A stretch of DNA of 54,766 nucleotides from an uncultured bacterium (GTDB lineage: Bacteria > Bdellovibrionota_C > UBA2361 > JANWWW01). Where the stretch lies: contig CALHSA010000007.1 of assembly GCA_938038205.1 (NCBI GenBank), positions 1 through 54,766 of the forward strand, in the 5' to 3' direction. This document shows, in pieces, positions 8,081 through 52,022 of this stretch. Under the pieces are notes generated by a model that did not search any database, was not told the DNA's origin, and worked only from the letters and a program-made list of their open reading frames with translations. The position numbers and the translations under genes are program-made. Positions within the stretch are counted from its first letter, which is position 1; every line of letters starts with the position of its first letter.

Positions 8081-8785
8081 GTGAAAACAGTTGATAAGGC
8101 GCGGATTTTAGCACCAAACCTATTTACCTTAGGAAATCTTTTATGTGGATATGTATCTACTATCAGTTCCTTAGGTGGGAAAGTAGATCTTGCATGTCAA
8201 TTAATTTTGTTAGGTGCTCTGTTAGATTACATTGATGGTCTTGTAGCTAGAAAACTAAACTCTCAAACGAAATTTGGTGTTGAATTTGATTCAATTGCAG
8301 ACTTTTTAACCTTTGGAATAGCCCCTTCGGCAATATTGTACAGTGTTTTCAGTAAATATGGATTTGACCAGTTGATCCTGGTTATAGGGTTCATATACTC
8401 TGCATCCGTTGCGATAAGATTAGCCAGGTTCAACAGTGCTGATACAGGCTCTTTACATTTTAGGGGTTTGCCTTCTCCTGCTGGAGCAATAACACTAGCG
8501 AGCTTATTTCAGATAACAAAGGAAATAGATGATAGAATTTTTTTATTTTTAACCCTAATCCCATCAACCTTGTTTATCTCTTTTCTGTTAGTCTCTAAAA
8601 TTGTTTTTCTCTCACTTAAGGAAAATACTAGGATCTCATTAAAACAAAAATTTTTAATATCAGTTTTATTAGGAGTTATTTACTATTTTGGTTGGTATGC
8701 AGTTCTTTTTATCATGGCCATTTACGTTATTTCTGGACCACTAATTTATCTTAGCCGACTATTTAAGCTTTTTCCCCGCTTTTAA
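8081..8785 (+). CDS. pssA: CDP-diacylglycerol-serine O-phosphatidyltransferase
   Basis: This integral membrane enzyme makes phosphatidylserine, the precursor of phosphatidylethanolamine. The CDP-alcohol phosphatidyltransferase signature DG-x2-AR-x8-G-x3-D-x3-D is perfect, running from D52 to D74 of 234 residues, and about six to eight hydrophobic helices follow the usual pattern of the family. The start is a GTG; a GATAAT hexamer lies only 4 nt before it (8071-8076), so any leader would be minimal. The 3' end overlaps the convergent coiled-coil gene by 27 bp. Confidence 0.93.
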   Translation: MKTVDKARILAPNLFTLGNLLCGYVSTISSLGGKVDLACQLILLGALLDYIDGLVARKLNSQTKFGVEFDSIADFLTFGIAPSAILYSVFSKYGFDQLILVIGFIYSASVAIRLARFNSADTGSLHFRGLPSPAGAITLASLFQITKEIDDRIFLFLTLIPSTLFISFLLVSKIVFLSLKENTRISLKQKFLISVLLGVIYYFGWYAVLFIMAIYVISGPLIYLSRLFKLFPRF

Positions 8786-9295
8786 GGCAGCTAACCTTGA
8801 TTTAAAATCTGACAAATCTTTAAATGATTTTGCCGATTCCAAATCTTTTTGGAGTTCATCTTTAGTTGAAGGATCTAAAACTTCCTTATATCTATCCAAC
8901 TCCCTTTGTAAAAGTTTTTTAAAAGCCAAAAGATCTGGAGGAATAGGATCTTGTTTAACTTTAATCAAGTCACATGAAGTTTTTAAGTCCTCTAATTCTT
9001 TTCTACAATTTTCAAGATCTTTTTTTAAACTATCATCAAAAACTGTCTTCTCAATAACTTTAATCTCGGACGGACAATCACATTCAGAGATACAATTTGA
9101 AGAATTTCTTGAGCTCTCTGAATTTTGTTCCAACTTTGCTTCTTCTAATTTACTCTCCAAATATGCTACTTTTTTTATTAGTTCATCGACAGCGTTTTCT
9201 AATTCAGTTACATAATCAAGAATTAGCTCATTTCTTGCCTGAGAAAACAAAGTAAAAACAAGTAAAATTAGGATTCTAACAAAAGAGTTCCCCAC
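8759..9295 (-). CDS. exported coiled-coil protein, function unknown
   Basis: I place the start at GTG 9295, which gives a clean signal peptide ('FVRILILLVFTLFSQA') directly after the initiation codon. The frame is open upstream to 9358, but that extension would only shadow the ketoacyl synthase gene. The mature protein, about 160 residues, is mostly charged heptad-like helix: 'VTELENAVDELIKKV' and 'LESKLEEAKLE', then a short Cys-rich linker 'SNCISECDC' and a second Lys/Glu-rich helical half. It overlaps the end of the upstream synthase gene by 28 bp and pssA by 27 bp. A periplasmic structural or scaffolding role is plausible, but no family is recognised. Confidence 0.6.
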   Translation of the reverse strand: MGNSFVRILILLVFTLFSQARNELILDYVTELENAVDELIKKVAYLESKLEEAKLEQNSESSRNSSNCISECDCPSEIKVIEKTVFDDSLKKDLENCRKELEDLKTSCDLIKVKQDPIPPDLLAFKKLLQRELDRYKEVLDPSTKDELQKDLESAKSFKDLSDFKSRLAALKAGKKLK

Positions 9296-10251
9296 GAGAG
9301 TCCTGCTCCTAACACAGCTATTAAAATTTTTTGACCATGATACTGAATTTCTTCCCAATTTTCAGACAAGCTAGCTAAAGCACCAGCAGCAGCTTGATTC
9401 CCCCGATAAACCACATTGCTCCAATGATTTTTTTCAGGGATTCCGCAAGCTTGGCAAATCTGATCTAACATGGTTTTATTCGCTTGATGACCTATAAATA
9501 TATCTCTGGAGAAATCCAAATCATACTGGTTTTTTACATCTTTTATCATTCTTACAGTTTGTAATACGGAGAAGTTTCTAACTGCTCTTCCGTCTTGCCT
9601 AAAATATCCTTCTCTCTCAATTAATACACTCGCCGCTCTAGTAGGGTCTGAATCAAAACTTGAATGTATTATTTTTAATCCTTTTTTTTCCTTTTTCGTA
9701 ACTATCATGGCCGCAGCACCATCTCCCCAAATGGCTCCATCAGTTCTATCACTGTAGTTTACAGTATGAGAAACCGTTGCTGATGTTACACAGCAAATAT
9801 TTTCTGGTAGATCCTCTAAGTTAAAGTTCAAACAAAGGTAACCATGTAGAGCAACTGCCGGACACGCTGTTATACAATCAACAGCTAAACAATCTATACC
9901 CAACTTTTCTTTTAATTGAACTGAGGGCGGTGGGAAAAAAAAATCTGGAGTGATACAATCTAACAACAACATTCCAATTTCATTTAGATCAATTTCTGCT
10001 CTTTTTGCAGCCATTCTAATAGCCTCATCAGCTAAATCAATCCATGTTTTTGTTCTAACTTTTAGAGTATCATAGGGGTTCTTATTTTTAGTTTGGCTTA
10101 TATAATCAAGTGGCAAAGTTACAGATCTCTCCTTTATACCAATTTTTTCTAAAATCCATGCTTCGGTTGTTCCAACATCAAGTGCTTCAATGAATTTGTT
10201 ATCAATAATTACATCTCCATAAGCGTGCCCAACTCCTACTACTCTTAACAT
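9268..10251 (-). CDS. 3-oxoacyl-ACP synthase III family protein (active subunit)
   Basis: This 327-residue thiolase-fold condensing enzyme has the full KAS III triad: Cys130 in 'CITACPAV', His255 in 'GHQANKT' and Asn285 in 'YRGNQAAAGA'. The C-terminal 'GAGLSWGTLLLE' is typical of FabH. FabH starts fatty-acid synthesis by condensing an acyl-CoA with malonyl-ACP. Several sequence features (a long 'DFFFPPPSVQ' segment, no other fab genes nearby) suggest a specialised paralogue rather than the housekeeping enzyme. It overlaps by 7 bp the 3' end of a gene encoding a shortened relative without the catalytic Cys, so the two are probably partners. Confidence 0.88.
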   Translation of the reverse strand: MLRVVGVGHAYGDVIIDNKFIEALDVGTTEAWILEKIGIKERSVTLPLDYISQTKNKNPYDTLKVRTKTWIDLADEAIRMAAKRAEIDLNEIGMLLLDCITPDFFFPPPSVQLKEKLGIDCLAVDCITACPAVALHGYLCLNFNLEDLPENICCVTSATVSHTVNYSDRTDGAIWGDGAAAMIVTKKEKKGLKIIHSSFDSDPTRAASVLIEREGYFRQDGRAVRNFSVLQTVRMIKDVKNQYDLDFSRDIFIGHQANKTMLDQICQACGIPEKNHWSNVVYRGNQAAAGALASLSENWEEIQYHGQKILIAVLGAGLSWGTLLLES

Positions 10252-10901
10252 CTGACTAATTCAGCAATACCAATAGTTCCATCAACTCCAACCTCTATTA
10301 GTTGAAATTCCTTAAAACTTATTTTAGAGAGCTGTATCATTACATCAATTTGCTGAAATAAAGAGTTTCCGTAGTTTTGACTAAGTATGGCTGGTTTTTG
10401 ACTAAAAAATCTACTCAGAGATGGCTCATATTCAGATGTCTCGGAGTTCTCTTCCTCAAGTTCAGAGTTTTCATTTTTAAAACAAGGCACTCTGAACCTT
10501 TTGTTTATCTTGTTTGTTCTCTCTAGAGAAACAGATTTAACTAAAAAATCACCCCTTTGGTTGTTAAATTCAATAACCGCCCCTACGCTTTCAAAGTCCT
10601 TGTAAATTTTTGTGTTAGCGATGAAATAGATTATGCGATTAAATTTCTTAGGAGAAAAAAATTTTAAGATAAAAGATAAACTGTATCCGCCTGTATTTAT
10701 ATCAAAACAAGGAAGTGTTTTCCCTAGAAGCCCAACTGCCCATTGAGATACAGTTGGACTTCTGAAGTCAGGACTGTAACTTTCGCCTATCACTATATCT
10801 GCTTTGTCTAATTCTACTAATTCTAACAGCTTTTTTGACAAGTCATTAGTTGATACGATTTGATTAGAGATGATAAATTTTGGAGACCCAATATACCACA
10901 C
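10245..10901 (-). CDS. degenerate KAS III-like subunit lacking the catalytic Cys
   Basis: The 218-residue product follows the KAS III outline but is about 100 residues short. The N-terminus keeps 'TNDL' and 'SPDFRSPTVSQ' (like the family's TPD..P...Q). 'CFDINTGGYS' (65-74) aligns with the active-site region of the next gene, with Gly72 where Cys130 stands. The C-terminal 'NYGNS' (176-180) and 'GVDGTIGIAELVR' match the Asn-containing loop and final strand. The segment carrying the catalytic His is missing, replaced by an acidic linker (146-160). It cannot be a working synthase on its own and overlaps the active gene by 7 bp. A heterodimer, as in PqsB/PqsC, is my inference. Start is GTG. Confidence 0.75.
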   Translation of the reverse strand: MWYIGSPKFIISNQIVSTNDLSKKLLELVELDKADIVIGESYSPDFRSPTVSQWAVGLLGKTLPCFDINTGGYSLSFILKFFSPKKFNRIIYFIANTKIYKDFESVGAVIEFNNQRGDFLVKSVSLERTNKINKRFRVPCFKNENSELEEENSETSEYEPSLSRFFSQKPAILSQNYGNSLFQQIDVMIQLSKISFKEFQLIEVGVDGTIGIAELVRC

Positions 10902-10908
10902 AACAACA

Positions 10909-10920
10909 ATATTATAATAT
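10909..10920. promoter_or_regulatory. palindromic divergent -10 element
   Basis: The 23-bp space between two divergent genes contains the perfect palindrome ATATTATAATAT. It supplies TATAAT on both strands: 10913-10918 on plus, 6 nt before the ATG at 10925, and 10916-10911 on minus, 9 nt before the GTG at 10901. A transcript starting about 7 nt after either hexamer would have no leader, or one of at most a few bases. No clear -35 element accompanies either side. Confidence 0.6.
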
Positions 10921-10924
10921 CTAA

Positions 10925-11617
10925 ATGCTGAAAAGAATTAATTGGATTGTCTTGTTTTTCTGTATAGGAATGTCTATTTGGCAATTAGTAAGGTTTCTTG
11001 AAAAGAAAAGCTTAGTTAGTTTAGCAAACGATAGAATACAAGTGGTAAAACAATTAAGTGAAATAGACCATCTAGATAATTTCCTGCTAGTTAGTTTAGA
11101 AGAACCATTAAACTTTGATTATATCATCAAAGTAAAACAATCATATCATGGTCAACCTGTTACACACATATATGTTTTAATATGGTTTGATAACTCGTAC
11201 TTGCCAGTTCAAATTGAGTGCAAGTATGGTAATAGTGTTTTTAAAACTCATAATAACCTTTGGTTAACAAGAGTTTTGCCAAGTAGAAAAATATATGTAC
11301 ATCTTATTTCAGGAATTTTAGTGAACGACTTTTTGCCCTTCTTAGATAAAAATCTTATTGAACGAAAATTTGGAGTAAAGGTACACGATTATTACTTACA
11401 AATGGTTCCGGAAAAAATAACAACTGATAGTATTTTTGCATTTGATTTCTCTAGATCAGATCTACTTTTTAAAACAGCTAACAAAGATATAAATCCTTGC
11501 TATCCAAGAATAGCTCCTCCTGAGCTTCATCTATCATATGTCTTTGAATGGCTTGTGCTTGGATTCCTAGGTTTTGGAATACTGAGTTTGGTTATGAGGA
11601 AAGTTCTCGTATTTTAG
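10925..11617 (+). CDS. SURF1-like cytochrome oxidase assembly factor
   Basis: The 230-residue protein has one membrane helix at each end with a periplasmic domain between, the SURF1 layout. The N-terminal 'SIWQLVRFLEKKSLV' matches the family's 'WQ..R...K..L' motif. 'ILVNDFLPF' sits where 'LVNRGWVP' is expected, and 'ELHLSYVFEWLVLG' matches the C-terminal 'HLSYA..W' motif. SURF1 helps insert haem a into cytochrome c oxidase. The middle part is highly divergent, so the assignment rests on topology and end motifs. It is transcribed from the palindromic divergent promoter and probably has a leaderless mRNA. No oxidase genes are in the window. Confidence 0.6.
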   Translation: MLKRINWIVLFFCIGMSIWQLVRFLEKKSLVSLANDRIQVVKQLSEIDHLDNFLLVSLEEPLNFDYIIKVKQSYHGQPVTHIYVLIWFDNSYLPVQIECKYGNSVFKTHNNLWLTRVLPSRKIYVHLISGILVNDFLPFLDKNLIERKFGVKVHDYYLQMVPEKITTDSIFAFDFSRSDLLFKTANKDINPCYPRIAPPELHLSYVFEWLVLGFLGFGILSLVMRKVLVF

Positions 11618-27555: not shown

Positions 27556-28917
27556 TTACTTTTGAAGTTGAAGAAGCCTTTCACTCTCTCGTTTTGCTAA
27601 TTCTGATTTCTTAATTCTCCATAATATTACCTTCGCTTCCTCCAAATTTTTTCTCCAGTTGACAATTGGTTTTGGTCTTTTAGTAGGAAGCCACATTTTG
27701 CAAAATCGATAAAATCTATCGTTATCTCTTAATTGTTTTTCAGGATCATATATTCTTATAGTATTATATCCGGTAACTCCTGCCTGCATTTGAATCTGTG
27801 GGTAATGTATCCCTGGTTCGAAATCTAAAAAAAGTTTAGCAAGAGTATTAGCTGCGAATTCCCATGGTTGTTTTAAAGCGTGACAGAAGAATGAGACAAC
27901 CATGGCTCGCATTCTGAAATTAATCCACCCAGTTGCTTTTAAACATTTCATAACTGCATCAACTAAATCAACACCAGTTTCTCCCTCGGCCCAAGCTTGA
28001 ATTAATTCATGATTAACCTCAAACGGCCAAGGTTTAAATGCTGCGTTAATACTTTCAAACTCATATTCTGGCAGTGATTCAAATTTCTGAATAAAATGTG
28101 AACGCCAAAAAAGCCTCGAAATGAAGGCGTTGCGCGAGCTTAAGGAGCTGGTATTAGATGCTTGAACGCTCTGATACACCTTTCTTGCGCTGATATTGCC
28201 GTATGCCAAATAAGGGGATAAACGAGAAGAATAAACTTGGGATTCATAAGGTTTTGAAATTGATTTCAAGTATTTTTCAAGCCTCCGTTCGCAAAAAGAT
28301 TTAAGTACCTTCAAAGCCTCCTCCTCGCCGGGAGTTTGAAAATTATTAGGATAATAAGAAAGCTCTGATTTAATTGCATACGGAAGTTCAAAGTGATTTT
28401 CCTTTAAATTTACAGCTAAATTTGCTTTGGGATATATTTTCAATGTTTTTTCGCTAAACCATCTTTCTACTCTCTCTTTCCATCCATCTCTGCTATTTTT
28501 TCCTCTTTGAATTCCGTCCCATGGTATCTCTATCCAAGTAACATGATTTTTTTTAAAAAATCGCCTTAATCTAATATCTCTTTTAAATGTGGCATCTACA
28601 CCCACTTCCTGGTGAGAAACAACGCACTTAACTTTAAAAATTGTTAGAAGATATTGAAATATTTCTAACGCCTCTCCCCAGAAAACTTTTATCGAGTGAC
28701 CATACTTATTTAAATTTTTATCAAGATTTAATAGGCTTCCATAAATAAACCTCCAGTGACGAATGTCCCATGTTGGCAAAAGTCTTAAAGATGGTTCAAA
28801 AATATAAATTATTAAGTATGGTAAACCTAACTCCTCGGCTTTAACAATTGATGGATTATCATGTAGCCTCAAATCCCTTTTTAGATAAACGATATTAATC
28901 AGCTGATATTGCTCCAT
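27556..28917 (-). CDS. cryptochrome/photolyase family protein (atypical class)
   Basis: The 453-residue protein has an N-terminal photolyase domain ('YLKRDLRLHDNPSI') and a FAD-binding C-terminal domain ('SRLSPYLAYGNISARKVYQ', 'GETGVDLVDAVMKCLKATGW', 'NFRMRAMVVSFF'). In place of the 'GGWQWSA' motif of classical enzymes it has 'HYPQIQMQAG', so the Trp residues at the end of the canonical electron-transfer chain are missing. The ending 'NTIRIYDPEKQ' marks a distinct subclass often found beside prokaryotic (6-4)-type photolyases. Its start overlaps the upstream photolyase gene by 23 bp, so they form an operon. Whether it repairs DNA or senses light is open. Confidence 0.85.
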   Translation of the reverse strand: MEQYQLINIVYLKRDLRLHDNPSIVKAEELGLPYLIIYIFEPSLRLLPTWDIRHWRFIYGSLLNLDKNLNKYGHSIKVFWGEALEIFQYLLTIFKVKCVVSHQEVGVDATFKRDIRLRRFFKKNHVTWIEIPWDGIQRGKNSRDGWKERVERWFSEKTLKIYPKANLAVNLKENHFELPYAIKSELSYYPNNFQTPGEEEALKVLKSFCERRLEKYLKSISKPYESQVYSSRLSPYLAYGNISARKVYQSVQASNTSSLSSRNAFISRLFWRSHFIQKFESLPEYEFESINAAFKPWPFEVNHELIQAWAEGETGVDLVDAVMKCLKATGWINFRMRAMVVSFFCHALKQPWEFAANTLAKLFLDFEPGIHYPQIQMQAGVTGYNTIRIYDPEKQLRDNDRFYRFCKMWLPTKRPKPIVNWRKNLEEAKVILWRIKKSELAKRESERLLQLQK

Positions 28918-30370
28918 GGTTTAATAGGAAATTTAAATAGTCGTCACCTACTTTAACTAATTCGTTCTTTTTGGAAGAATTAGTTAATCTACTCAATAAA
29001 GGCTTCAGGCGAGGATTTTCAGATAGTTTGTCATAATTTTTGTGTATGAATCTGTAAAAGAGTCCATCAAGTTTAAGTGTCCATTCTCCTTTTTTAAAAT
29101 CAGACATCTTTAAAATATAATTGGAGCCCGAAAAATATGGCTTTGTTGAGAGAATTCCTCCGCAAGCAAACTGACTCATCGAGTAAACATTAGGTACCAT
29201 TACCCAATCAAATGCATCTATGAAATTTTGCATAAAATATTTATAAACTTCATCAGGATGAATTTCGCACAGAAAAAGAATATTCCCAACTACCATCAAT
29301 CTCTCGATGTGATGTAGATATGCAATCGATTCTACTTTTTTTACACAATGAATTAAGGGTTCTAAATTAAATTTCTTTAGGTCTTTAATTTTATATCTGT
29401 GATCAAAAAAATTTGATTTTCTTATGACTGAGCCTTTAGTTTCATACAAAAATCTCATGTATTCCCTCCAGCCAATTATTTGTCTAAGGAATCCTTCAAT
29501 AGAAGGCAGGTTTTCGTTATTTACTCTCTCAATAACCTTAGAAATGATAACTGTAGGATCTAATAATCCTACGTTTAGATATGCTGCTATACCACTATGA
29601 AAAATAAAATTACTTTTTACAGTGATAAAATCCTGGTAGGCTCCAAAGTTCTCAAGCCTCTGCTCCAGGAAAGTTTCAAACCAAGTTTCAGCATCTTCTC
29701 GCGTTACAGGGAAGAAAAATTTTTCACTACTTCCTGGATTTGAGGGAAACAAAGATTCGACATAATCTTTTGCTTCTTTGACAAAAACATTTTGTTTTAC
29801 ACAGGGATCTGGTGGCAGAGAGAATTTTTTTGGCAATCTTTTCCTATTGAAAACATCAAAACTCCACCTTCCTCCAACTGGTTTTCCATTTGAATATAGA
29901 ATTGAGTGTTTTTTTCTTTGATGTATATAAAAATCATGTAATTTGTATTTATCCTTTATACCAAAATCAGACTCTAAATCTTTCAATGAGTTAATAAAAT
30001 TTGGTGTGGTATGAAAAAGCACACTAGATCCTAGTAAAACTCTCAATCTTTTGGCTAATATGTAATCCGTGGGTTCATATGTGTGGAACTTTTGAAAACC
30101 TAACTCTTTAAGTTTTTTTACCACCTGCTTTAAATTTTTAAATGCTTGAAAATCGAAATATAACACAGCTCTACCTGAGTTTTTCAGCTCAAACTCGTGA
30201 GCTTTCATTGTTGCTCTGTGAAAAACTAGTTTTAGCTTATGAAATTTGACTTCATACTCATAATCATTAAAAAACAATGAATCCTCAATAAGGGCAATCG
30301 TATGATCTTTAGGTAAACTCAGGTTTTGTTTATAAAGTTGGTGGGGGAAAATTAGCCAAACGGAGGACAT
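28895..30370 (-). CDS. prokaryotic (6-4) photolyase-like protein lacking Fe-S cysteines
   Basis: The 491-residue protein belongs to the PhrB/CryB branch: an N-terminal DUF-like photolyase domain ('WLIFPHQLY'), 'GKPVGGRWSFDVFNR', 'GFLRQIIGWREYMRFLYE' and 'DWVMVPNVYSMSQFACGG', 'KPYFSGSNYI'. Fe-S members have Cys-x2-Cys after 'MSDY' and another Cys before 'PFN'. Here the segment reads 'MSDFKKGEWTLKLDGLFYRF' (~420), with no Cys and a shortened loop, so a [4Fe-4S] cluster is not expected. The gene heads a two-gene unit with the next cryptochrome and is divergent from a third photolyase gene across 195 bp. Confidence 0.88.
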   Translation of the reverse strand: MSSVWLIFPHQLYKQNLSLPKDHTIALIEDSLFFNDYEYEVKFHKLKLVFHRATMKAHEFELKNSGRAVLYFDFQAFKNLKQVVKKLKELGFQKFHTYEPTDYILAKRLRVLLGSSVLFHTTPNFINSLKDLESDFGIKDKYKLHDFYIHQRKKHSILYSNGKPVGGRWSFDVFNRKRLPKKFSLPPDPCVKQNVFVKEAKDYVESLFPSNPGSSEKFFFPVTREDAETWFETFLEQRLENFGAYQDFITVKSNFIFHSGIAAYLNVGLLDPTVIISKVIERVNNENLPSIEGFLRQIIGWREYMRFLYETKGSVIRKSNFFDHRYKIKDLKKFNLEPLIHCVKKVESIAYLHHIERLMVVGNILFLCEIHPDEVYKYFMQNFIDAFDWVMVPNVYSMSQFACGGILSTKPYFSGSNYILKMSDFKKGEWTLKLDGLFYRFIHKNYDKLSENPRLKPLLSRLTNSSKKNELVKVGDDYLNFLLNHGAISAD

Positions 30371-30530
30371 ATTTTTTTACCCTGTTTTAAGTTTATTACG
30401 CTTAGTTAATAATAAGAACAACAAGCTCAATTGGTCCAAGTCTCTGCTCAATAATAAGGTCTATAGAACCATACCGAGGAGCACTGTAAATGATAAGCGA
30501 ACTAATATTAATTCAAGTAGCAATGAATGT

Positions 30531-30559
30531 TTGTTAAAATAATACAAATCGCATAAAAT
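30531..30559 (+). promoter_or_regulatory. promoter of the third photolyase gene
   Basis: TTGTTA (30531-30536) and TAAAAT (30554-30559) are 17 bp apart. The GTG start codon at 30566 lies 6 nt after the -10, exactly where transcription should begin, so the mRNA would be leaderless. Confidence 0.55.
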
Positions 30560-30565
30560 CGCGAT

Positions 30566-32002
30566 GTGTCATCTCCTTTAATTTTTTACTGGGTTAGAAG
30601 AGATTTTAGGCTAACAGATAATCCAGCGCTACACTATGCTAGCATGGTGGAAAAAAAGCCTATTATTCCAATTTTTTTTATTGAACCTTATATGCAGCAA
30701 GGTGCGGTTGAAAACAACTTTGGATGGCCTCAAAGGTTTTTTCTAACAAGAGCTTTAAAGAATTTTGCCAAACAATTTAAAGATTTTTATATAATTAATG
30801 ATCACCCAACAAAATTTTTCCGGAAAATAGCTGAAAAGCATCCTTTAAAAATTTTAGTTAACGAGGACGTACATCCTGATTTTTACTCTCAAGTAAAAAA
30901 ATTACATAAAACAGGAATTGATATCAGGGTTTTCCCCGATCAGATAACAGTGCCTAAAAATACTGTTACCAGTAATGGATCAGAATTTTCTGTTTTCTCA
31001 CCATTTAAAAAAGCTGTTTGGGATTTCTTTTTAGCACAAAAACCATTACCAAATGTTCATATTGAGACAGAAAAAAATATTTTTTGTGAAAACTCTAAAT
31101 TAGATCATACAAATTTGGAAACAGTATTTTCTAAGTCTCGTAAGTTTTTAGTAGACAATTATGTTATTGATTTAGATGAAATTTCAGAGGGTCCTAAGCT
31201 TGATGGATGGTATTTTACTGAGCAAGAGGCACAAAAGATGTTGGATGAATTTATCCAAAATAAACTAAGGCTTTACCATAAAAATAGAAATTTTCTCAAC
31301 ATGGATGGCACATCAAAACTAAGCTTAGCGCTGACATGGGGTTTAATCTCGGCAAGAAGTATTAAACAGAGAATTATGGAGTATATTAACCTAGATTACA
31401 TCAAACCAGATTCCAAAGAGTTTACTGGAGAGATTACGTTCATTTCAGAGCTGATTTGGAGAGAGTTTTATAAATATCTTCTTTTTCTAAAGCCATGGCT
31501 ACTTAAAACTGAATTTCAAGAAAATAAAAGAGGTATTAAATGGCTCAGTAATGATAAAGCTTTATTGCGTTTTAAATCATGGATAAGGGGGGAAACAGGC
31601 TATGCCATTGTGGATGCCGCAATGAAGGAGATTCAACAAACAGGTTTTATGCATAACAGGGCCCGAATGATAGTTGCCTCAATTTTGACCAAAAACCTTG
31701 GTATTAATTGGAGATGGGGTCAGGAATACTTTAGGGCAGCTTTGATTGATTTAGATGAGGCTTCAAATAACGGAGGATGGCAATGGTCTGCTAGTGTTGG
31801 TGCAGACCCTCAACCAATTCGAATATTTAACCCATATCTTCAAGCTAAAAAGTTTGATCCTGATTTTACTTACCAAAGAAGATGGTTAGGACCCGCGTTC
31901 GAAAGGTACAAGAAAGATGAAAAGGATATTGCTCCAATTAAGCCTTTGGTGGAACACGTTGATGCTAGACAAGAGGCCTTAAGAAGATATTTTTTATCTT
32001 AG
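30566..32002 (+). CDS. phrB: deoxyribodipyrimidine photolyase (class I CPD type)
   Basis: This 478-residue flavoprotein would split cyclobutane pyrimidine dimers with light. It has 'YWVRRDFRLTDNPAL' at the N-terminus, 'ISELIWREFYKYLLF', 'ETGYAIVDAAMKEIQQTG', 'HNRARMIVASIL' and 'NNGGWQWSASVGADPQPIRIF', including the Trp residues of the classical electron-transfer chain, then 'FNPYLQAKKFDP'. Of the three related genes it is the closest to textbook photolyases. The start is a GTG with a well placed promoter. The 3' end overlaps the convergent E2 gene by 4 bp. Confidence 0.92.
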   Translation: MSSPLIFYWVRRDFRLTDNPALHYASMVEKKPIIPIFFIEPYMQQGAVENNFGWPQRFFLTRALKNFAKQFKDFYIINDHPTKFFRKIAEKHPLKILVNEDVHPDFYSQVKKLHKTGIDIRVFPDQITVPKNTVTSNGSEFSVFSPFKKAVWDFFLAQKPLPNVHIETEKNIFCENSKLDHTNLETVFSKSRKFLVDNYVIDLDEISEGPKLDGWYFTEQEAQKMLDEFIQNKLRLYHKNRNFLNMDGTSKLSLALTWGLISARSIKQRIMEYINLDYIKPDSKEFTGEITFISELIWREFYKYLLFLKPWLLKTEFQENKRGIKWLSNDKALLRFKSWIRGETGYAIVDAAMKEIQQTGFMHNRARMIVASILTKNLGINWRWGQEYFRAALIDLDEASNNGGWQWSASVGADPQPIRIFNPYLQAKKFDPDFTYQRRWLGPAFERYKKDEKDIAPIKPLVEHVDARQEALRRYFLS

Positions 32003-49089: not shown

Positions 49090-50289
49090 TTATCCAAAAT
49101 AAAAAATAACTAATCTTCCAAGCAGTATACCAACTAAAGCCGTTAAGAATAATGATACAATAAAAATAACCGTTTCCGTAGATATATATTGAGTTTCAAC
49201 CTCCTGCACCTCTGTATCTAAACTTTTTAAATTTAAGTTTGATTTTAAAACCTGATTATTTTTAAAAAGCTCAACTTCAGTTCCGGAAGTGGATTCCTCA
49301 AGGATAGCAAAATCAAAAGGATCTTTAGCAGTTGTATTGCTTTGTCTTGAATCAGTAACTTTATGAAAATCTTTTACACTAATCTCACTAGTTTTACTCG
49401 TAACCTGGGATAGTTCCTCAACTGTAATATTTTCTTTTTCGAAAATACTTGCAAGCTCAACAAGTATCTCCTCCATACTTTGAAATCTTTCGTCAGGATT
49501 TCTTCTGAGACACTTTAGAATTAGATTAGCAAGGCCTTCGGGTATTCTAGGATTTATTGTACGAGGATCTATAGGATCTTGTTTGATCCGGGTAGTCATT
49601 ATGTCTAACATTGACCCCTGATTAAATAGTTGAACTCCAGTAAAAATTTCAAATGCTAACAATCCAAATGCGTAAATGTCACTTCTCTTATCTATGGTTC
49701 CATGAATGATGTATTCTGGACTGACATAATTGATTGTGCCTACTACGCCTCCATGCTCAGTTAACTTTGGGCCAAACTGAGCCTTTGCAATTCCAAAGTC
49801 AACAATCTTAACATTTTCATCAGATGTTAAAAGGATATTCTCTGGTTTTAAATCTCGATGAATGATGCCAGCATCGTGTAAAGCCTGCAAGCCAGAAGCC
49901 ATTTGCCATAACCACTTGAGCCCAAGCTCAAAGGGAATAGGATTTTGATTGTATTTTGCGAGCCTGTCTGCAAGATCACCGCCATCCAAGTATTCCATGG
50001 AATAAGCTACTAAATCCCCATCCCTAATGTATTCATAAGCTCTCACAACATTTGGATGATTTACTCCATACGCAACTAATACTTCGTTTCTGAACCTGGC
50101 ATTCAATGCTGGATTTTTTGCGACCTCCGGATATAAGACCTTTAACGCATATAATTTTGAATTATCGCTACCAACGATTCTGGCCGAATAAACTATACCC
50201 ATGCTCCCTGCGCCCAGGCATTTAATGATTTCATACTTACCGGCTACTATAGTACCAGAGCGCAGAGTGGTAGTTGCTACATCTACCAT
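49090..50289 (-). CDS. membrane-anchored Ser/Thr protein kinase
   Basis: The 399-residue protein has a eukaryote-like kinase domain (residues ~18-285): Gly loop 'LGAGSMGIVYSA', ATP-binding Lys in 'YALKVLYPE', 'HRDLKPENILL', 'DFGIAKAQFG' and 'GTINYVSPEYI'. A ~90-residue linker follows with a single membrane helix near the C-terminus ('FIVSLFLTALVGILLG'). The kinase therefore faces the cytoplasm with almost no periplasmic part. The ATG shares one base with the FHA gene stop (TAATG), and the CpaE-like gene follows 2 bp later. Confidence 0.94.
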   Translation of the reverse strand: MVDVATTTLRSGTIVAGKYEIIKCLGAGSMGIVYSARIVGSDNSKLYALKVLYPEVAKNPALNARFRNEVLVAYGVNHPNVVRAYEYIRDGDLVAYSMEYLDGGDLADRLAKYNQNPIPFELGLKWLWQMASGLQALHDAGIIHRDLKPENILLTSDENVKIVDFGIAKAQFGPKLTEHGGVVGTINYVSPEYIIHGTIDKRSDIYAFGLLAFEIFTGVQLFNQGSMLDIMTTRIKQDPIDPRTINPRIPEGLANLILKCLRRNPDERFQSMEEILVELASIFEKENITVEELSQVTSKTSEISVKDFHKVTDSRQSNTTAKDPFDFAILEESTSGTEVELFKNNQVLKSNLNLKSLDTEVQEVETQYISTETVIFIVSLFLTALVGILLGRLVIFYFG

Positions 50290-51014
50290 TAAATCAGAAG
50301 AGCTATGAACTCAACGTTTCCAAATACAATTTTATCTCTTGAATCAGCTTCGGCTTTTTCACCACATAAATTTAGCACCTCTCCACTCTCTTTTTTAATT
50401 ACCTTGGTCCCATTATCAGATAGTTGATCAAGGACCAAAATTTTACCCTCAGTAACTTTGAGAATTGCGTGAAATAAATCTACAGTTTCATCCTTGATAA
50501 TTAATTGATTTGTATCACTAAAGTCAGGTTTTTTTGAGACTATTAATCTTCCTTCATACAAAGGGAAATACTCTCCCTCTGGGTCAAAATGGTAGGTGAT
50601 TAAAAATCCAACAAGCTTTCCCTTTTTTGATTTATAGTTAAATACCACCGGTGAATTATCCTCAGCAGTAGTAACAAAGGGGAAGTTTTGATTAGGAGTA
50701 GCTTGAGGCTGGTTGTGGAGCGGCTCCTCCGGTCTTAACGCAGTTGGGGATTCATGTCCAGACTGTTTTGGAGAAATAATAGTTTGAGGAGTTGCAACAT
50801 CTGAAGGTATTTTTAGCAAACTCTCTCTATTTAAAGTGATCCTTCTAGTGGGTTCAGCTGAAGTTTCACCACTACCTGGCTCAGATAGCACCTGATGCCT
50901 AACTTTGCTGGTTATTTCAGGGCTAAGCATCATGGTTTTATTTTTTGCTCGGGTAGCAGATAAATCACCTTGCTCTTGATCATCAAAATTAAATCCAAAC
51001 TTTTCCTCTTTCAT
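50289..51014 (-). CDS. FHA-domain protein
   Basis: The 241-residue protein has a long disordered N-terminus (~1-140) rich in Pro, Gln and Thr, with Thr motifs such as 'KNKTMML' and 'TRRITL' that could be kinase targets. A C-terminal FHA domain (~165-241) follows: 'SDTNQLIIKDETVDLFHAIL' and 'LSDNGTKV', matching the S-x2-H and NG positions of phosphothreonine binders though the Ser is replaced. It would bind phosphothreonine made by the neighbouring kinase. It alone in the operon has a strong Shine-Dalgarno. Confidence 0.85.
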   Translation of the reverse strand: MKEEKFGFNFDDQEQGDLSATRAKNKTMMLSPEITSKVRHQVLSEPGSGETSAEPTRRITLNRESLLKIPSDVATPQTIISPKQSGHESPTALRPEEPLHNQPQATPNQNFPFVTTAEDNSPVVFNYKSKKGKLVGFLITYHFDPEGEYFPLYEGRLIVSKKPDFSDTNQLIIKDETVDLFHAILKVTEGKILVLDQLSDNGTKVIKKESGEVLNLCGEKAEADSRDKIVFGNVEFIALLI

Positions 51015-51017
51015 ATT

Positions 51018-51023
51018 ACCTCC
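51018..51023 (-). promoter_or_regulatory. strong Shine-Dalgarno of the FHA gene
   Basis: GGAGGT on the minus strand lies only 3 nt before the ATG at 51014. It is the best ribosome binding site I found in the window and shows that SD pairing is available, although most genes lack it. The spacing is shorter than usual. Confidence 0.6.
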
Positions 51024-51026
51024 AAA

Positions 51027-51926
51027 TCAGTTTACCAGTAACACTACCCCTATAATCAAAAGTAGTAGTGAGAGTAAAATCGCGATTATGTATAAAATTT
51101 TCCTGGTGAATATATTTTGAGAGCGGGAGTAAACTTTAACCACGGAATCCTCAAATGAGACCTTGCCAGGAAGAGGTATAATTGCTACTGTGATATTGTC
51201 AAAGCCACCTCTATTCTTAGCAAGCTCAACAAGTTTAAGAACAGCTGCCTGTGGGGATAACTCTTTTGTTATTTTGCATATTTCAGACTCACTAACTAGT
51301 GAGTAGAGTCCATCAGTACATAAAACAAGAGTATCAAAACCACTGTTTCTGTAGATTGAGTATACAAAGGTATCTGGAATCAATCTATGATCAGATCCAA
51401 GACATTTTGTCAGAACGTGGGATTCTGGGTGCCTTAACGCATCTTCAGGGTTCATTTTTCCTTGGTCAACATACATTTGAACTAATGTGTGATCAATGGT
51501 TAACTGAGTAAGCTCATTTTCTTTTAAAAGGTAGGCCCGGGAGTCTCCAACATTGGCTATATACAGTTTCTCAGGTGTTATTAACGCTGCTACTATCGTT
51601 GTACCCATATTTGAATAATTAGGATTTTGCCTTCTAAGAATGATTACCCTGTTGGCTTCTCTTACAGCTGAAATCAAAACTTGTTCAGGATTCTCATTTT
51701 CTCCAGCCGAACTTACTTCTCTTAAAAAAGCATCCATGGCAATTTGAGCAGCTACTTCCCCTCCAGCTGCCCCTCCTAAGCCATCAAAAACTGCCCAAAA
51801 TATTCCTAACTTAGTCTCTAAAACACAATACCTATCTTCATTTAAGTCCCTTTCTAGCCCAGTGTCAGTAATAGCAGCTGGGAGCAAAAAATTTTGATCA
51901 GATTTAGTTTCCCCTAACCGGTACAT
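51027..51926 (-). CDS. PP2C-family Ser/Thr phosphatase
   Basis: From the ATG at 51926 the 299-residue protein carries the PP2C motifs 'LNEDRYC', 'AVFDGLGGAAGGEVA', 'NVGDSRAYLL', 'LVLCTDGLYSLV' and 'GGFDNITVAII'. The metal-binding Asp residues are all present. A membrane helix closes the protein ('IIAILLSLLLLIIGVVLLV'), so it is membrane bound. The frame is open to a TTG at 51932, adding two residues. It heads the operon PP2C-FHA-kinase-CpaE-like and would reverse the phosphorylation made by the kinase. Confidence 0.93.
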   Translation of the reverse strand: MYRLGETKSDQNFLLPAAITDTGLERDLNEDRYCVLETKLGIFWAVFDGLGGAAGGEVAAQIAMDAFLREVSSAGENENPEQVLISAVREANRVIILRRQNPNYSNMGTTIVAALITPEKLYIANVGDSRAYLLKENELTQLTIDHTLVQMYVDQGKMNPEDALRHPESHVLTKCLGSDHRLIPDTFVYSIYRNSGFDTLVLCTDGLYSLVSESEICKITKELSPQAAVLKLVELAKNRGGFDNITVAIIPLPGKVSFEDSVVKVYSRSQNIFTRKILYIIAILLSLLLLIIGVVLLVN

Positions 51927-52022
51927 TTCCAACTACACACTTAAAGTCGTCTATTCAAAATTTTTCTTAAGCTTTTATTTCCTATTATAAACCTTTTGCA
52001 AAAGCTAAAATGAAAATTTGTT

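Follow-up and report, generated by a model that had tools for sequence, protein, structure and literature searches.

The gene pair and its surroundings

The stretch of DNA analysed here, 54,766 nucleotides in length and referred to as the window, carries on its reverse strand two overlapping genes of the ketoacyl-ACP synthase III (KAS III) type, designated A and B in the order of transcription, which lie between a gene for an exported coiled-coil protein and a divergent SURF1-like gene (Table 1). A preliminary description of the locus had recognized two coupled KAS III-like genes, the downstream one retaining Cys130-His255-Asn285 and the upstream one with Gly72 in the Cys position and without the His segment, and all of this could be confirmed. 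Both open reading frames were located, with a 7-bp overlap through which A and B are likely to be translationally coupled; Cys130, His255 and Asn285 of B occupy the KAS III positions and are invariant in an alignment of 16 orthologue rows; Gly72 of A aligns with Cys130 of B, and the segment with the His is absent from A. Asn179 of A falls on the Asn column, within a gappy stretch of the alignment.

Table 1. Features of the gene pair and its immediate neighbours (positions in the window).
Feature	Position	Strand	Description
Exported coiled-coil gene	8759..9295	-	Start probably the GTG at 9295, within the end of B; relatives have similar genes at this place
Gene B	9268..10251	-	KAS III-like catalytic subunit, 327 aa, Cys130-His255-Asn285
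Phe106-Pro107 of B	9931..9936	-	Equivalent gate position; coordinates derived from B residue numbers
Overlap of A stop and B start	10245..10251	-	7 bp; both open reading frames located
Gene A	10245..10901	-	Non-catalytic KAS III-like subunit (putative pseudoenzyme), 218 aa, GTG start; relatives in 24 genomes, predicted KAS III fold
Residues 43-58 of A	10728..10775	-	S-P-D-F-R-S-P-T-V-S-Q-W...; interface loop and start of helix, matching E. coli FabH Phe87-Pro88; gate residue Ser48; coordinates derived from A residue numbers
SURF1-like gene	10925..11617	+	Divergent neighbour; SURF1-like genes at this place in 19 other loci

The B protein matches the Pfam families ACP_syn_III_C (2.6e-14) and ACP_syn_III (1.6e-9), while A gave nothing over the cut-off in Pfam and no match in NCBIfam; a weak Pfam match to ATV_ORF273, below the cut-off, was rejected as a name for A. 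The chance of 218 open codons at the local composition is about 2e-8, and the codon usage of A agrees with the annotated frame 0, which taken alone is a weak test, because the opposite strand, read in its second frame, scores similarly for both genes. Another genus of the window's family holds an orthologue of A with an open frame (33% identical, E=2e-27). The host genome comprises 1.22 Mb in 46 contigs and is about 81% complete.

Around full-length pairs the gene order SURF1-like, A, B, exported coiled-coil, O-antigen-ligase-like recurs, with the SURF1-like gene found in 19 loci, the O-antigen-ligase-like gene in 18 and the coiled-coil gene in 11. The neighbours had earlier been thought to look different, a view to be modified, as the SURF1-like and exported coiled-coil genes are conserved around full-length pairs too. 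By its position and by a motif seen by eye, the coiled-coil gene of the window is probably the orthologue of those in the relatives; beyond it lies a CDP-alcohol phosphatidyltransferase gene, as is also the case in genome G001. The neighbouring genes point to no substrate. A and the SURF1-like gene start on either side of a gap of 23 bp (10902-10924) and read away from each other; the gap holds the palindrome TATTATAATA, which gives TATAAT on both strands near each start, a possible bidirectional promoter yielding near-leaderless mRNAs. At a distance from the pair, inspection of the translations by eye brought to light three consecutive photolyase/cryptochrome-like open reading frames (27556-32002), as well as serine/threonine-kinase-like, FHA-like and PP2C-like frames close together (49090-51932).

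Distribution of the pair

Of the 45 genomes of the window's phylum-level group, 26 contain an orthologue of B (45-66% identity), and in 24 of them a KAS III paralogue immediately precedes B on its strand. Class-level and phylum-level searches cover the same 45 genomes, and the search for a wider spread consisted of a single pattern scan of named genomes, in which the matching records were deposited as Deltaproteobacteria, Oligoflexia, Bdellovibrionales and Candidatus Dadabacteria MAGs; the nearest of them, Deltaproteobacteria bacterium SKYG31, belongs to the same family as the window. The preliminary description had called for a search for the same pair in related genomes and had named its absence from all of them, amid random decay, as a refutation; this did not come about, the pair being kept by the 24 genomes just mentioned. 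No account of such a pair in this bacterial group turned up in the literature library consulted.

Four B genes have no adjacent A. In G033 and G043 no A was found next to B in the retrieved stretch, the contig of G043 reaching only about 0.5 kb upstream, and two more cases were met in MAGs labelled Gammaproteobacteria (L064) and Lysobacterales (L069). The B-like genes of the latter two nest with the B genes of the group, by transfer or mis-binning. When A was sought elsewhere in the genomes without an adjacent copy, just weaker KAS III-like matches, individually unread, appeared besides B; A could lie elsewhere or on a missing contig. In G031 a fragment of A was found on a separate contig, and B was not found. 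Of the earlier suggestion of an obligate heterodimer, the conserved, coupled pair of dead and active genes is borne out, but the word obligate overstates the case across the group because of the four B genes without an adjacent A, so A is not always needed.

Loss of the catalytic residues and origin of A

Among the 24 A sequences, the Cys is replaced in all by G, S, A, L, I, D or T, and the His is likewise replaced in all, while the Asn is replaced in 23, the A of the window with its Asn in the gappy stretch being the exception. All three catalytic residues are accordingly missing in 23 of the 24, and the A of the window is without Cys and His. The B sequences, on the other hand, keep Cys and His without exception (26 of 26) and the Asn in 25, the remaining one being a masked sequence (L040). 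Full-length homologues of A with an intact Cys-His-Asn triad would have spoken against a dead partner; full-length homologues were indeed found, and none of them has an intact triad.

The A proteins mostly measure 318-368 aa, with 282 and 283 aa in two genomes, 256 aa (open frame) in G001 and 218 aa in the window. Since A is full length in most relatives, the short form is a trait of the window's family, and by this comparison of lengths the 218-residue form is a late shortening confined to that family, with two partly shortened cases elsewhere. The notion of a miniature dead copy therefore remains valid for the A of the window, but not for the dead partner in general, which is mostly full length elsewhere, the shortening being late and family-specific.

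In a careful tree, from which the four most divergent A sequences (that of the window included) and the KAS III of the PRK09258 type were omitted as long branches, A forms one clade (100/98) and B another (96/94), the two being sisters, and five solo active KAS III from Spirochaetales, Desulfobacterales, Polyangiaceae and other MAGs fall outside A+B (100/97). In a quick tree that includes the long-branch sequences, A, B and the solo group are each set apart from the rest by a single branch (100, 95 and 68). The simplest reading of these trees is one duplication before the radiation of the group, after which catalysis would have been lost in A. More specifically, an active KAS III may have been duplicated in tandem, A may have lost its catalytic residues, and the window's family would finally have trimmed A to an interface core.

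Constraint on A and the interface loop

Conservation was compared over 22 full-length pairs and 321 columns, in blocks of ten residues (B numbering). Pairwise identity averages 0.34 among the A proteins and 0.67 among the B proteins, and the A/B ratio is distributed very unevenly along the chain: it amounts to 1.10, 0.94, 0.98, 1.25, 1.01 and 1.01 in the blocks across B 70-129, drops to 0.29 at the Cys turn (B 130-139), returns to 0.99 and 0.81 at B 140-159, and lies at 0.11-0.32 over B 200-279, which contains the His region. The conserved half is the dimer interface of the KAS III fold. Judged by these ratios, A matches B in conservation only in the dimer-interface half, and the catalytic half of A itself is unconstrained.

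Within the interface half, the loop B 100-114 ranks 12th of 306 fifteen-column windows for the conservation of A relative to B, a rank that is descriptive, as the loop was picked from the known role of Phe87 after its conservation had been seen. In E. coli FabH, residue 87 sets the chain length, Phe being associated with short chains and Thr, as in M. tuberculosis, with long ones, and in PqsD the equivalent residue, provided by the second monomer, lines the pocket (PMC3734052). At this gate position the A proteins carry Cys, Thr, Ile, Val or Ser across the relatives; in B the position varies widely, with Phe in the window and in G001. Within the interface stretch, Pro49 and Gln53 are shared by every A row.

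A further hint comes from the B proteins without an adjacent A. Residues present in at least 75% of A and in at most 50% of the 21 paired B were listed for B positions 60-199, and eight positions emerged. At four of these, the A-typical residues P70, Q104, Q111 and K120 (B numbering) occur in 4/4, 4/4, 4/4 and 3/4 of the B without an adjacent A, as against 24, 38, 43 and 5% of the paired B (n=21); the A-typical S108 occurs in 2/4, and those at 122, 143 and 158 in 0/4. The four sequences represent two branches at most and hence are not fourfold independent. Because B without an adjacent A carries A-typical residues, the pattern is suggestive of A supplying part of the active-site wall of B in trans; alternatively, the residues could be retained ancestral ones. 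The swap is not directly applicable to the window's family, in which both loops have diverged.

Predicted fold of A

A first AlphaFold2 model of the A of the window, built from A rows alone, reached a pLDDT of 67.8 and a pTM of 0.70, and its best PDB matches were FabH structures at about 1e-7. A second model, made after the first had given this pLDDT and with B and solo rows added to the alignment, reached a pLDDT of 82 and a pTM of 0.81; 217 of its 218 residues align to chains of type III PKS and KAS III (Z up to 17.4, rmsd 3.1). The best Foldseek match of the A model is a FabH (5.6e-9). The second model is the better of two tries and may be biased towards the KAS III fold by the B rows in its alignment, such that the first provides the cleaner evidence. 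A is thus predicted to adopt a compacted KAS III (thiolase-type) fold over the whole chain.

Comparison with known KAS III enzymes

The closest precedents are heterodimeric. PqsB of Pseudomonas aeruginosa is a dead KAS III-like subunit devoid of all three catalytic residues and forms with PqsC, which lacks the Asn, a FabH-like pseudo-twofold dimer that makes alkylquinolones (PMC4807248). The preliminary description had put forward PqsB/PqsC as a precedent, and the conserved combination of a dead and an active KAS III-like subunit in A/B lends support to the analogy. The differences are equally clear: B keeps Asn285 and in this respect departs from the active subunit of PqsBC, A/B are not part of a recognizable pathway, and A and B are each other's sister clades in the present trees, which contain no PqsB/PqsC sequences. 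In the lipstatin synthase LstA/LstB, another heterodimeric KAS III, the active subunit has Cys-His-Asn, as B does, and needs its partner LstB, which provides Glu60 required for activity (PMC12141560). A has no Glu at the position of OleA Glu117; where OleA and LstAB have a partner-supplied Glu before Pro, S, C, T, I or V is found in A. By analogy, and apart from any common origin, the pair may work like PqsB/PqsC or LstA/LstB.

Canonical FabH (TIGR00747) shares with B the fold and the Cys-His-Asn triad, whereas B has in addition a stretch around residues 46-67 unmatched by FabH, as well as a dead partner. Against TIGR00747, B scores 107.7 bits (97.5 in the genome search), well short of the cut-off of 292.1, and A gives no match. 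By tree position, the nearest active relatives are the solo KAS III of L071-L073 and L076 (Spirochaetales, Desulfobacterales and other MAGs), which are 33-37% identical to B and share its extra stretch, but have no dead partner. They adjoin FabG-, FabA- and FabF-like genes, an acyltransferase and a phosphopantetheinyl transferase, gene sets that resemble a dedicated fatty acid or polyene pathway. Chains of BioZ (3-oxopimeloyl-ACP synthase) are among the sequence matches, though not the best ones.

Proposed mechanism and alternatives

Very probably, A and B are two halves of one KAS III of which only B is catalytic, the formation of an A-B heterodimer being inferred from conservation. We further consider it likely that the two form an asymmetric dimer in which A lends B interface and pocket wall. 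B would then do all the chemistry: Cys130 would accept the acyl group from a thioester, and His255 and Asn285 would drive the Claisen condensation; the CoA-stacking Trp32 is kept in B. A would fill the place of the second monomer, give B a stable interface, and lend across it the loop that walls the acyl pocket of B (the equivalent of Phe87 in E. coli FabH). In the window the wall residue from A would be Ser48, B's own being the bulky Phe106. The small gate residue allows the guess that the substrate might be an acyl-CoA of more than two carbons.

That A might instead act as a regulator or in a non-enzymatic role of its own, with B as an ordinary homodimer, would fit the intact triad of B in the four genomes without an adjacent A; it is nevertheless unlikely, given that the conservation of A is concentrated in the dimer-interface half, that A-typical residues appear in B where A is missing, and that the two genes are directly adjacent and overlap. 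Less probable still is that the A of the window is a decaying remnant. Its long branch, its 218 aa as compared with about 325 aa elsewhere and the loss of catalytic residues are what decay would produce, but the gene is open and coupled, has the open counterpart in another genus of the family, obeys the invariance of Pro49 and Gln53, and yields a confident predicted fold over most of its length.

Two further proposals concern the reaction. The pair might replace canonical FabH in starting fatty acid synthesis, at least in families without FabH, a claim on the pathway that does not conflict with the heterodimer. FabH above the TIGR00747 cut-off is missing in at least seven B-bearing genomes, the window's included (G000, G001, G003, G007, G028, G036 and G043), and FabF is present in each of these seven. 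Canonical FabH is, however, also present in most other B-bearing genomes, the seven include several incomplete ones, G000 contains a second KAS III, no fab genes adjoin the pair, and Thr260 of B stands at what we presume to be the position of E. coli FabH Arg249, which may weaken ACP binding. We regard this replacement as doubtful and as a lead only. The second KAS III of G000 is of the PRK09258 type (318 bits, over the cut-off) and lies on another contig (L103:8436-9512). Placement of the pair within a fatty acid gene cluster was rejected for G000, G001, G003 and G007, whose fabF lies elsewhere, and no fabH-like open reading frame was seen by eye beside fabF in these four. A joining of two acyl-CoA chains without decarboxylation, in the manner of OleA or LstA/LstB, has a precedent in the heterodimeric LstAB (PMC12141560), and OleA is among the structural matches of the A model. 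Yet OleA requires Glu117-Pro from the other subunit (PMC7064751), where A never has Glu, and genes like oleB, oleC or oleD were not noticed in passing beside the pair; this reaction seems to us improbable, more so than the regulatory role.

Taken as a whole, the picture of a KAS III heterodimer that evolved separately and distributes its active site over two chains, with the pocket wall on a dead paralogue cut to 218 residues in one family, is in our estimate evenly poised between right and wrong. If true, it would add a third lineage with such an architecture, and the A of the window would be, to our knowledge, the smallest KAS III-fold partner. The solo enzyme, the paired full-length pseudoenzyme and the miniaturized partner would then form a natural series that bears on the route by which duplication turns a homodimer into an asymmetric heterodimer, and the B genes with and without A would make the contribution of the dead subunit directly testable. 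In library searches, B and full-length A would both be labelled ketoacyl-ACP synthase III, and the short A gets no name.
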